Source: Cavenderia fasciculata
Lineage: Eukaryota > Evosea > Eumycetozoa > Acytosteliales > Cavenderiaceae
Direction: 5' to 3'
Length of the DNA: 64,000 nt
NCBI RefSeq assembly: GCF_000203815.1
Contig: NW_004457723.1
Coordinates: forward strand, 992,001 to 1,056,000
Below, in pieces: positions 56,200 through 61,171 of the stretch. How positions within the stretch are numbered: position 1 is the first letter of the stretch; each line of letters starts with the position of its first letter. The notes beneath the pieces are model-generated. The model had not been told where the DNA came from. It made no database searches and was given only the letters and a program-made list of their open reading frames with translations. Made by a program: the position numbers and the translations under genes.

Positions 56200-56700
56200 G
56201 GTCTGCAGTTTAATCATTAATGAACGGGTTGGAAGTCCAATGGCTGGAAGATTTCTTGACAGCAATCATGATGATAGCAAATGGCCACTATAAAGAATCT
56301 TCCAGCCATAGAATATTCGGGCAACAGATATTGGGTCATCGGTCACGAGTTGCATTACGATACTTGCTTTTGGTGAGATTTGATTGAATTGCAAACGCCA
56401 ATAACTGTATATATCTACATGCATGATTTGTCCGCGATACCACAGACATATTTAATTTCATGCACAAACCAAACGATCCTTTGGGATAGTTTGTTAAGCC
56501 TCATTGACAAGTACGCCAAACCACATGGAATGATCGTATCTGGTGACTTCAACGAAACCACTAGACTCTCAGATCGCTCTCCACAAAGACCAATCTTTAC
56601 CACCGCCAACCTTCCTCTCTTCCTTAGACGCCACCTTCTCTTTGATCCAGCTCCTCTTGATTCGCAGGAATCACTTTCATTGTTAGACTAGAAAACCTAA
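56200..56700 (+). mobile_element. Remnant of an AP-type endonuclease, probably from a non-LTR retroelement
   Basis: A reading frame at 56380-56691 encodes 'ELQTPITVYIYMHD' and, after a helix, 'HGMIVSGDFNETTRLSDRSP'. The 'GDFN' core is the catalytic Asp/Asn motif of exonuclease-endonuclease-phosphatase proteins such as LINE endonucleases. Just upstream, another frame has 'YWVIGHELHYDTCFW', consistent with preceding strands. No reverse transcriptase is present nearby, and the downstream block loses the frame. It is probably a dead fragment. Confidence 0.45.
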
Positions 56701-57135
56701 TAGAAAGTTTAGAAATTAAAGGTATTATCATCTCTTCTATCATGAATCACTCAGACGTACAAACCATAACGCCTTACGGTCTGACCAATCACTACATTGA
56801 AACACCAATGATCTTGACCGTGCTCTATCAAACCATTGAATAGTTACATCTACATTCCTAATATTAGTTTATATATTTATACTACTCTGTCTTTTCTTTT
56901 CATTGCAATTAGTCGACTCGAGGGAAGTAAAATAATAATAATAATGAAACTCGAGATGATAGACTTTATCAAACCCTTCCAAAGAAGACTTGTCAGCGAA
57001 ATTAATTAAAATTAAATTATTGTTAAAAAGTAATAATTGTTGTACTAGCAACAACAACAACAACGACTACAACGACAACAACAACAACAACAACTGCAGC
57101 ACAGTCTCAGAGGCAGCTTAGTTGAATCGACGACC

Positions 57136-60100
57136 ATGGCAAAAGGGTCAGCTGCATCTGCTACGACTAAATACTATGCAATATCAAAGGGCAGAAAGGT
57201 AGGCATTCTAACAAACTGGGATGATTGCTTGCACTCTGTCAACGGGTACTCTGGTGCTACCTACAAGTCTTTCAAAGACCCAATTGAAGCACACAACTAT
57301 CTCATCAACCAACCAGATTATATACAAACATGTTTAAAACGATTCGAAAAGAATAGTCCTACCATCTCTTCAACCTCTCCTCAACCAATCACACCAGCAG
57401 CAGTACAAGTACCTGCATCAATACCAAAAACATCATCTTTATCTCTTTCTATTGTACCGTCAACTCAACAACAACAACAACAAGTTGGATCAAAATCATT
57501 CAAGACTGTTAGAGAAGCAAAAGATTATTTTCTTGAACAGATTAGTCCAACCATTATTCATAATCCTCCCCAACAACAACAACAACAACAACAAGTTCAC
57601 GATACCGATAATAATAATGGTATAATTATCAAAAAGGAACCTATAGATAATGCAATAATGGAATTTAATGTTGATGATCTTTTTGATCCAAACTTTAAAG
57701 TAAATAGTTGTGGTGGTGCTGGTGGTGGTGGAGTAGGAGGAGGGAAGAACCTCAAACAATGCTCAATTGATAACTTTGTAACCTCAAAATCAAATTCAAT
57801 TGATAAATATATTGTACGTGATGATCAATCAACAACTTTGGATACATTTGTAAATGATAATGGTGAAAGATTAGAGTTGACATACAAATTGACTATAATT
57901 AAAAATAACTCTCCTCCAATAACTCCAACCATTAATAATATTAATAATAATACTAGTTCAACAAATAATAATAACAATAATAATAATATTCCTCCACCAA
58001 TATTTATTGCTGGTAAAATAACAAATCCATCAAAGTCTATTACTACAACTACTTCGACTACAACAACATTGGCAAAAACAAAATCAATGAAAAGAAAAGA
58101 GATGCTCGTGATAGAAAATGTATTGGACAATGAAGACCAATCAGATGAAAATACAACAGATGATGAATGTTTTGATGATGATTTAACAACTGAAACATTA
58201 TCAGAAGAACAAAGATTTGTATTGGACCATGTTTTAAAGGGAAATAATATATTTCTTACTGGCGGTGGTGGTACTGGAAAGAGTTATCTGTTGCGTATCA
58301 TGATCAGTTGTTTGAGGAAAAAGTTTAAAGTCAATGAATTGTATGCTACTGCCAGTACTGGTGTGGCAGCTGTCAATATTGGTGGCACTACAGTACATAG
58401 TTTTGGAGGTATTGGTCTTGGAACCAAACCGGCTGAAACATTATACTATCAAATTTGTAACAATATGAAAGCATTGAAAAGATGGACTAGTTGTAAATGT
58501 TTGGTTATCGATGAAATATCAATGATATCAAAGACTATATTTGATTTATTGGACTATTTGGCAAAAAGAATTAGATCAAATCAAGAACCATTTGGTGGTA
58601 TTCAATTAATTGTAGTTGGTGATTTCAGTCAATTGCCACCTGTCGTAAACGATCGAAAAGCATTACAACCTGGAGAAAAGAAACAATACATGCATCAACA
58701 ATTTTGTTTCTTGTCACCCGCATTTAAACAATTGTTTACTCAAAATTCTTTTAATCTTACACAAGTCTATAGACAATCAGATACTACATTTATCGATATT
58801 CTCAATCGTATCAGATTTGGTATTGTTAAAGATGAAGATATTCAACTTATAAATGATAGAACCTCAAGACCTTTATCAATTACTGATAATATTATTCCAA
58901 CTATTTTATGTATGTAGAAAAAAAGAAAAGAAAAGAAAAATAAGTTTATATTTACTCTTTTTTTTTTTATTTAGATCCAAAAAAAGTAAATGTTCATGAA
59001 GAGAATATTAAACAACTTGCATTGATTAATGAAAAGGAATATACTTTTAAAGCTGATGATTATGGTGACCCTCAACATATGGGTTTTACAAATTGTCAAG
59101 CCCCTGAAATTGTTAAATTAAAAACTGGTGCTCAAGGTAACCAAAAAAAAAAAATATTAAAATTTAAATAATATTTTAATCAATTTATTTACTTTTATTT
59201 ATTTTAGTTTTACTTATGGTCAATCAAGATTTTAAGAAAAAACTTGTAAATGGGTCACGTGGAGTCATTGTTGGATGGGAATCATCTAATGAAAGCAAAG
59301 ATGAACTGTTGTTACCAATAGTCAAATTTAATAGTGGTATTCAAAAAACAATTAAACGTCATACATGGGAATTGGAAGAACGAATCCTTTACAGAAAAGA
59401 AGAAAAGGTTCGAGAAGTAATTGCATCGAGAACTCAAATACCTCTTATTCTAGCATGGGCTATATCTATTCATAAAAGTCAGGGTATGACCATTGATAAG
59501 CTATCAATTAATTTGGATGGCGTTTTTACTGTATGTATAAATATAAAAAACAAAATGAGAAAAATTGTTTATTAACTATATTAATCCAAAAATTTTATTT
59601 AGTTTGGTCAAACCTATGTATCATTGTCTAGAGCAACAAGCTTGGATGGATTAAATTTACAAATTCCAATTACATCTGCACATGTATCTACTCATGAAAA
59701 GGTGATTGAATTTTATGATCAAATGAAAAAAAATAATATGATCAAAGCACAAGAACCAAAAAAGATTGAAGAAGAAAAAGAAAAGATTGAAGAAGATATT
59801 GTTCAACAAACATTAAAGAAATCAAAAACAGAGCATGATATTACAAATGACAATCAAAAACTTTTACAATTGGATAATAATCAACAATCATCAAATTCAA
59901 CAACAGTAGTACCTGTTGCAGACTTTGATTCTTTTGATTTTTCAGATGACAAATCATTTACATCTGATACAAAAGATGATCAAGATCAAGATCATTCTTT
60001 TATAGACTCTGATCAAGATGATTGTACAGTTCAAGATGACGATGATGTTCCTCTTACTTTTCAAGAATGTGCCAATAATAATAATAATAATAGTAGTTGG

Positions 60101-60635
60101 GCCAAAGTAGAACAAGAAAGTCAAATAGATAAAAATACTAATATAAGAATAAGCAACAACAACAACACAACCAAAAAGACGACTTCACTGGTGATTTCAA
60201 AACAAAAACCATCTGACACGACCATTAAAAATAATATTTTACCAACAACTAATATTAATAATGATAATAATAGTTCACCAACAACCAATAATAGTTTACC
60301 AACAACTAATATTAATAATGATAATAATATTTTGCCAACATCAACAATTAATATTATTGATATTGATGAACCAGAAATAGTAGCAACACAAGAAATGGTA
60401 GTTGGACCTAATAATATTAATAATAATATGGATATTGATTTTGATTTCGAACTTGCCAATGATAATAATAATAATAATAACAACGAACCGGGAATAGTTC
60501 AAACATCAGCTCAACGTGAAATTGTATCTACCAACTCTATCAATAATCACAATGACCCAGAAACAGTACCCAAACCAACTCCATGCGAAATTGTATCTAC
60601 CAACTCAACCAATAATAATAATAATAATAATAATG

Positions 60636-60703
<68 letters not shown>

Positions 60704-60805
60704 CAACCAGAAATATTTGGTCCTAATAGCTTGGAATTCGATTTTGATGACCCAGAAACAGTACAAACATCAGCTCCCTGTGAAATTGTATCAAACAATT
60801 CAATC

Positions 60806-60841
<36 letters not shown>

Positions 60842-61171
60842 CAACCGGAAATAGTACCAACTCCCTCGAACAATATTAATAATTTAGTCGAACCCCCAAT
60901 CAATAATAACAATAATAATCAAAATAATAATAATAGTAATAATAATAATAATAATAATGATATGGATATTGATTTTGATTTTGAGACAACAGTTGGCCCT
61001 AGTGTAGAAACAAATCAAATCAAACAAGCCAAACGACCAGTTAGACTAAACCTGACTTTATCCAAAAGTAAAACATTGGATAATAATCAAACAAAGTCTA
61101 ACAACAACAACAACAATAGTAATAATTTCACACAAACCAATGATGATGATCATGACTTTGATTTCAATTGA
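57136..61171 (+). CDS. pif1: PIF1-family helicase with N-terminal RNase H1-type hybrid-binding domain
   Basis: Four exons (57136-58909, 58975-59136, 59208-59530, 59603-61171) join to 1275 residues. Residues about 10-60 ('TKYYAISKGRKVGILTNWDD', then 'VNGYSGATYKSFKDPIEAHN') match the RNA:DNA hybrid-binding domain of RNase H1, and a second partial copy ('SFKTVREAKDYFLEQ') occurs near residue 120. The helicase begins near residue 352: Walker A 'GGGGTGKS' (about 375), 'ATASTGVAAVNIGGTTVHSF' (PIF1 signature region), Walker B 'LVIDEISMIS', 'GDFSQLPPV', 'VYRQSD', and late motifs 'AWAISIHKSQGMTID' and 'YVSLSRATSLDGL'. All motifs look active. PIF1 enzymes unwind G-quadruplexes and R-loops in nuclei and mitochondria. 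The C-terminal 500 residues are Asn-rich repeats. No RNase H catalytic domain is present. Confidence 0.9.
60475..60970 (+). repeat. Tandem coding repeats and AAT tracts in PIF1 tail
   Basis: Units with cores 'EIVSTNSINN' or 'EIVSNNSINN' and 'DDPETVQTSAPC' recur three times between poly-Asn runs (AAT repeats, the longest at about 60610-60702). Short 'DMDIDFDF' boxes flank them. It is an expanding low-complexity tail. Confidence 0.8.

Follow-up and report, generated by a model that had tools for sequence, protein, structure and literature searches.

R-loops and RNA primers are usually removed by two kinds of enzyme: nucleases equipped with a hybrid reader, such as RNase H1, and helicases that lack one. 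On the helicase side, yeast Pif1 and Rrm3 have been proposed to clear R-loops at tRNA genes (PMC5413955). On the reader side, three human hybrid-binding domains (HBDs) in tandem form RHINO, a live R-loop sensor in cells (PMC10639055), and the combination of W43A/K59A/K60A with D210N serves as a non-binding RNase H1 control (PMC6868509). Another protist is described as lacking a typical eukaryotic RNase H1 (PMC8516963), and a fungal helitron carries a viroplasmin-domain gene that is separate from its PIF1-like helicase (PMC4289320). A description of an HBD fused to a PIF1 helicase was not found among the matches listed in the open-licence literature on HBD/viroplasmin, Pif1 and dictyostelid RNase H or R-loops, nor is such a fusion mentioned in the available portions of PMC8516963, PMC6511855 and PMC5603734.

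In Cavenderia fasciculata, the 31.0 Mb assembly of which comprises 21 contigs, one gene combines the two halves. It is located on the plus strand at positions 57136-61171 of the window, i.e., the whole 64,000-nucleotide stretch analyzed here (G000:C7:992001-1056000), and its four exons encode a 1275 aa protein in which an RNase H1-type HBD precedes a predicted PIF1-family helicase (Table 1). The protein is similar to eukaryotic PIF1 (yeast Pif1/Rrm3, human PIF1) in its profile match, helicase motifs and spliced GAQV segment, but adds the N-terminal HBD and a linker of ~300 residues, most of it low-complexity. Its HBD belongs to the same family as those of RNase H1 (yeast RNH1, 1qhk; human RNASEH1, 3bsu), whereas a motor replaces the RNase HI nuclease, so that RNA would be displaced rather than cut. 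The domain order is the same as in certain bacterial fusions, where the HBD is found at the extreme N-terminus; the bacterial proteins, however, are compact (513-528 aa, with ~12-23 aa between the Pfam matches), and their helicase comes from a separate lineage. We assign a probability of roughly 0.55 to the reading that this is a PIF1 helicase which acquired an RNase H1-type HBD at its N-terminus and would thereby be aimed at R-loops or RNA primers.

Table 1. Features of the C. fasciculata HBD-PIF1 gene (window positions).
Feature	Positions	Strand	Basis or description
Exon 1	57136..58909	+	ATG, HBD, linker, N-terminal half of PIF1; 591 codons plus one base; stop-free, Pfam matches at both ends
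RNase H1-type HBD, aa 12-60	57169..57315	+	PF01693 60.5 bits; own HMM 62.9 bits; PDB 1qhk, 3bsu
HBD-like fragment KSFKTVREAKDYFLEQ, aa 120-135	57493..57540	+	Shuffle tests; incomplete domain
Three [ST][IL]Dx[FY][VI] repeats, aa 208-239	57757..57852	+	Pattern search
PIF1 helicase domain, first part (motifs I, Ia, II, III, IV-like)	58198..58909	+	PF05970, motif scan
Intron 1	58910..58974	+	GTATGT...TTTAG, 65 bases; position and phase as in the L005 intron
Exon 2	58975..59136	+	PIF1-like sequence restored on splicing
Intron 2	59137..59207	+	GTAACC...TTTAG, 71 bases; splicing yields GAQVLLMVN across the join
Exon 3	59208..59530	+	Segment LVNGSRGVIVG and motif V
Intron 3	59531..59602	+	GTATGT...TTTAG, 72 bases
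Exon 4	59603..61171	+	Motif VI, followed by a long low-complexity tail that is rich in N and D and contains three acidic FDF motifs; stop 61169-61171

An earlier note on this DNA had placed the gene at 57136..59800. The start stands: no earlier in-frame ATG follows the preceding stop, and the codon is preceded by A at -3 and followed by G at +4. The end does not, as the gene continues through three short AT-rich introns, all of the GT...AG type, to the stop codon given in Table 1.

The same note had claimed an HBD at the N-terminus and proposed to check it by a profile search, which bears it out: PF01693 matches aa 12-55 of exon 1 over its full length (profile positions 1-44 of 44) with 60.5 bits (E 1.8e-16, cut-off 21), within the range of 31.6-87.5 bits spanned by 59 HBD matches from 54 bacterial genomes. 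With an HMM built solely from 34 bacterial and phage HBDs, aa 12-60 score 62.9 bits, and a phmmer search of the PDB recovers the HBDs of yeast (1qhk, E 8.2e-9; 19 of 45 residues identical) and human (3bsu, E 5.1e-5) RNase H1. All of the positions that are typically conserved in the family, namely Y, both G, W, K, F and A, are present. From the PDB alignment, we take human W43, F58, K59 and K60 (human numbering) to correspond to W28, Y43, K44 and S45. Two of the three HBD residues mutated in the non-binding human control are accordingly retained (W28 and K44), and the position of K60 is occupied by serine, as it is in 29 of the 34 bacterial and phage HBDs. Together with six HBDs found by tblastn, the C. 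fasciculata domain forms an alignment with 12 invariant columns, including Y14, G19, G23, W28, C31, A41, K44, F46, E51 and A52. It also keeps seven of the eight columns that are invariant among the 34 HBDs (the eighth has I for V), a count that overstates conservation because the pattern used to pick this set, from which near-identical copies were dropped, itself demanded both G residues and the W and restricted Y14 and several other positions; K44, F46 and A52 lie outside that pattern. Among bacterial HBDs, the best identity is 60%, to the HBD of a bacterial RNase H. A structure predicted for aa 1-200 from the single sequence has low confidence (mean pLDDT 37.7) and the order strand-strand-helix-helix, which presumably agrees with the HBD fold. 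Base composition was considered as a sign of foreign origin, given that GC3 is 0.45 for aa 1-60 and 0.13-0.20 in the other three blocks of exon 1, and was dropped because values as high are reached by 32% of 212 sixty-codon stretches from the remaining long ORFs in the window.

The second partial copy of the domain reported in the earlier note is only partly sustained. The fragment KSFKTVREAKDYFLEQ resembles the C-terminal third of the HBD only (HMM positions 33-47 of 51) and has no counterpart of the Y and W residues. Shuffle tests give mixed evidence: its BLOSUM62 score is reached by 58 of 5000 shuffles, whereas with the HMM of the 34 HBDs the linker has 7.6 bits compared to a best value of 3.6 among 2000 shuffled linkers (727 reported). 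With this HMM the best stretch has 4.2 bits when the whole protein is searched and 6.6 when the linker is searched by itself. The similarity is weak and non-random, but a complete HBD with the Y/W half is not present. The fragment may be a remnant of a duplication.

The helicase body is present, in agreement with the earlier note. PF05970 matches aa 355-568 with 153.6 bits (cut-off 25.9), and a scan for what we take to be the SF1B motif set (I, Ia, II, III, V and VI, with the Walker lysine, DE and arginine) finds every one of these motifs in the spliced protein. The first of the three repeats in the linker resembles what we take to be a relaxed PCNA-interaction motif.

PIF1 matches are found at four genes genome-wide (five matches, one gene being in two pieces), namely the HBD-PIF1 gene and three paralogs, L004, L005 and L006, in none of which an HBD was found by the genome profile and protein searches. 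L005 is the closest to HBD-PIF1 (45% identity over 394 columns), has an intron that agrees in position and phase with intron 1 of HBD-PIF1 (PTIL|YPK), and carries the sequence SQITDFF near its N-terminus. By eye, L004 (G000:C21:547613) is a PIF1 with a U-box-like (ubiquitin ligase) C-terminus, and L006 starts with a mitochondrial-targeting-like sequence.

No second HBD was detected in the 31 Mb assembly by PF01693 search (E<=0.001) or protein search (E<=10), which intron-split genes may escape. In the position C-terminal to the HBD where RNase H1 carries its RNase HI domain, HBD-PIF1 has the helicase, and no RNase_H match (E<=1) was obtained in the four stretches that cover its exons. Genome-wide, PF00075 (RNase HI) has a single match, in a retroelement ORF with an adjacent reverse transcriptase. 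The model NF001236 and the phage RNase HI domain have no match in the assembly, the phage-domain search having been run without a positive control. A PF13456 match was rejected, with a score (17.3 bits) below the cut-off and an ORF that is not RNase H-like by eye. It is therefore likely that any other HBD, and any RNase HI outside retroelements, is absent from this genome, a conclusion that falls short of proof because the search ignores introns and may overlook an HBD or RNase HI that is interrupted by them. Two genes of the RNase HII type are present (L009 and L010), one of them split and still found. By eye, L009 is RNase H2A-like. L010 (G000:C21:1177209-1177901) is a 678 aa ORF with a PF01351 match of 117.5 bits, a DESGKG stretch and, by eye, a mitochondrial-targeting-like N-terminus; it may perform the organellar work that is done elsewhere by RNase H1.

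The HBD-PIF1 architecture is not unique to C. fasciculata but recurs in bacteria, in Faecalibacillus intestinalis (NZ_PYLQ01000025.1) and in metagenome-assembled genomes of Erysipelotrichaceae. A genome scan yielded 18 loci: four HBD-PIF1 fusions confirmed with Pfam (L019-L022), 12 PIF1 genes without a matched HBD and two HBDs on short ORFs. The four genomes with HBD-PIF1 that were checked each contain a second HBD, in an RNase H-type ORF of 202-208 aa. In an even draw of 196 genomes from one bacterial order, that of Faecalibacillus and its relatives, with the genomes already found included, the Faecalibacillus protein was matched in nine (E<=1e-60): seven have an intact HBD-PIF1 ORF, one has a partial copy (matched from residue 49, with three in-frame TGA codons), and one has a PIF1 without HBD. 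At the class level, the 59 HBD matches come from 54 of 395 genomes. Typing by pattern assigned 29 of 35 scanned HBD loci, 25 to RNase H and four to PIF1; six did not fit, one of which (L052) reads as RNase H type. Of the 59 class-level matches, 26 fall outside this typing, among them G335 (an ORF of 509 aa) and G134 (341 aa). Four bacterial ORFs of 493-504 aa (L050, L061, L064 and L067) consist of an HBD, an RNase HI-like part and a long uncharacterized C-terminal part, in contrast to the usual length of ~200 aa for HBD-RNase H.

On plasmids, 23 records match the HBD, and of the 20 listed, 18 carry an RNase H or viroplasmin annotation. Seven phage records have a tblastn match to the HBD; of five examined, annotation or inspection by eye identifies four as HBD-RNase H, and the fifth, the human faecal record MT835469.1, reads as HBD-PIF1. 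The protein of this record (L014), which is labelled as a bacteriophage, matches the F. intestinalis protein at a stated identity of 100%, the two translations differing by one residue over the part compared, and because of this near-identity MT835469.1 may be bacterial or prophage DNA. Two scans of IMG/VR confirmed no HBD relatives.

The identical domain order in Faecalibacillus and its relatives raises the question of whether the entire amoebal gene was transferred from bacteria bearing the same fusion. The phylogeny of the helicase makes this barely tenable. In a tree of 20 PIF1 cores, with the four of C. fasciculata as its only eukaryotic members and 16 bacterial ones, the four are split from all the bacterial sequences (support 100/99) and HBD-PIF1 pairs with L005 (83/85). 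Both trees carry a long-branch warning; upon removal of L004 and L034, the split has support of 100/100 and the pair 93/78. Forcing the C. fasciculata protein into a group with the four bacterial fusions lowers the log-likelihood by 123.86 and is rejected (p-AU 4.3e-80), and the nearest relative is the genome's own L005, with its intron in common. The tree, the AU test and the shared intron all place the helicase with its own paralogs, which implies that the helicase halves of the amoebal and bacterial fusions have separate histories and that, judging from these sequences, the fusion was made at least twice. Transfer of the HBD alone is compatible with the tree results on the helicase. We regard it as very improbable that the HBD and the helicase belong to separate genes, or mostly to separate transcripts, and that the frame was misread. 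Such an arrangement could draw on three donor-like sites inside exon 1, but the HBD and the IV-like motif are connected by a single open frame. The other two frames of exon 1 contain 30 and 71 stops, and shuffling the bases of the 299-codon linker 20000 times never left the frame open; this upholds the original claim that both domains, each with its Pfam match in the same first exon, are parts of one gene.

With regard to function, we infer hybrid binding, substrate targeting, a nuclear location and an R-loop or primer substrate. The HBD, on its long linker, would grip an RNA:DNA hybrid (an R-loop, an RNA primer or similar); this grip would raise the local concentration and the residence time of the PIF1 motor, which, on the neighboring single-stranded DNA, would strip the RNA through repeated unwinding. 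The preferred setting would be the replication fork and the R-loops or RNA primers encountered there, in view of the PCNA-motif-like repeat in the linker and the SQITDFF sequence near the start of L005. An R-loop helicase is a plausible proposal that fits the known activities of HBD and PIF1, and it gains strength from both the missing RNase HI outside the retroelement and the bacterial parallel. An alternative that we consider rather unlikely is that the HBD is a general tether for nucleic acids or proteins (for example, dsRNA or a P32-like partner) and would stabilize the helicase on many substrates without a specific R-loop aim. The human RNase H1 HBD does bind the protein P32 (PMC3750045), and the position of K60 differs from the human domain; nevertheless, the other two positions mutated in the non-binding control are unchanged and yeast Pif1 already favors RNA-DNA hybrids, for which reasons a hybrid reader fits best. 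It is less probable still that the HBD was added to the N-terminus recently and neutrally, has no selected function and is heading to decay. A single genome was inspected, the linker contains the HBD-like fragment, and the paralog L005 has no HBD, which speaks for neutrality; on the other side, the domain scores like bacterial HBDs and keeps the columns common to those found by tblastn, whereas the adjoining linker is low-complexity.

This natural fusion of reader and motor, made at least twice, allows a direct test of whether hybrid retention limits PIF1 on R-loops, and offers a natural design for helicases directed at R-loops. Because no RNase HI was found outside the retroelement in the same genome, C. 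fasciculata may also be an instance in which one R-loop pathway has taken the place of another. Tentatively, we suggest that RNase H1 might have been lost in this lineage, with the hybrid reader surviving solely on the PIF1 motor, that some handling of R-loops or primers might have shifted from cleavage of the RNA to its displacement, and that bacteria might have reached the HBD-motor design separately, as would befit a favored solution.

Two minor observations concern the flanks of the conserved domains. Judged by eye, two short ORFs just upstream of the gene (56377-56843) resemble fragments of the endonuclease and reverse transcriptase of a non-LTR element, with one stretch similar to the L002 element. 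A retroelement origin of this DNA was not retained: Pfam gives no match for these ORFs, and among the 40 of 116 candidates scored in a DNA search, the region, besides itself, has one 48-base match and matches to the CAA-repeat stretch. In the C-terminal tail, the three acidic FDF motifs lie within 60431-61168, and the paralog L005 likewise terminates in DLEFDF, which suggests a partner-binding motif shared by the two proteins.
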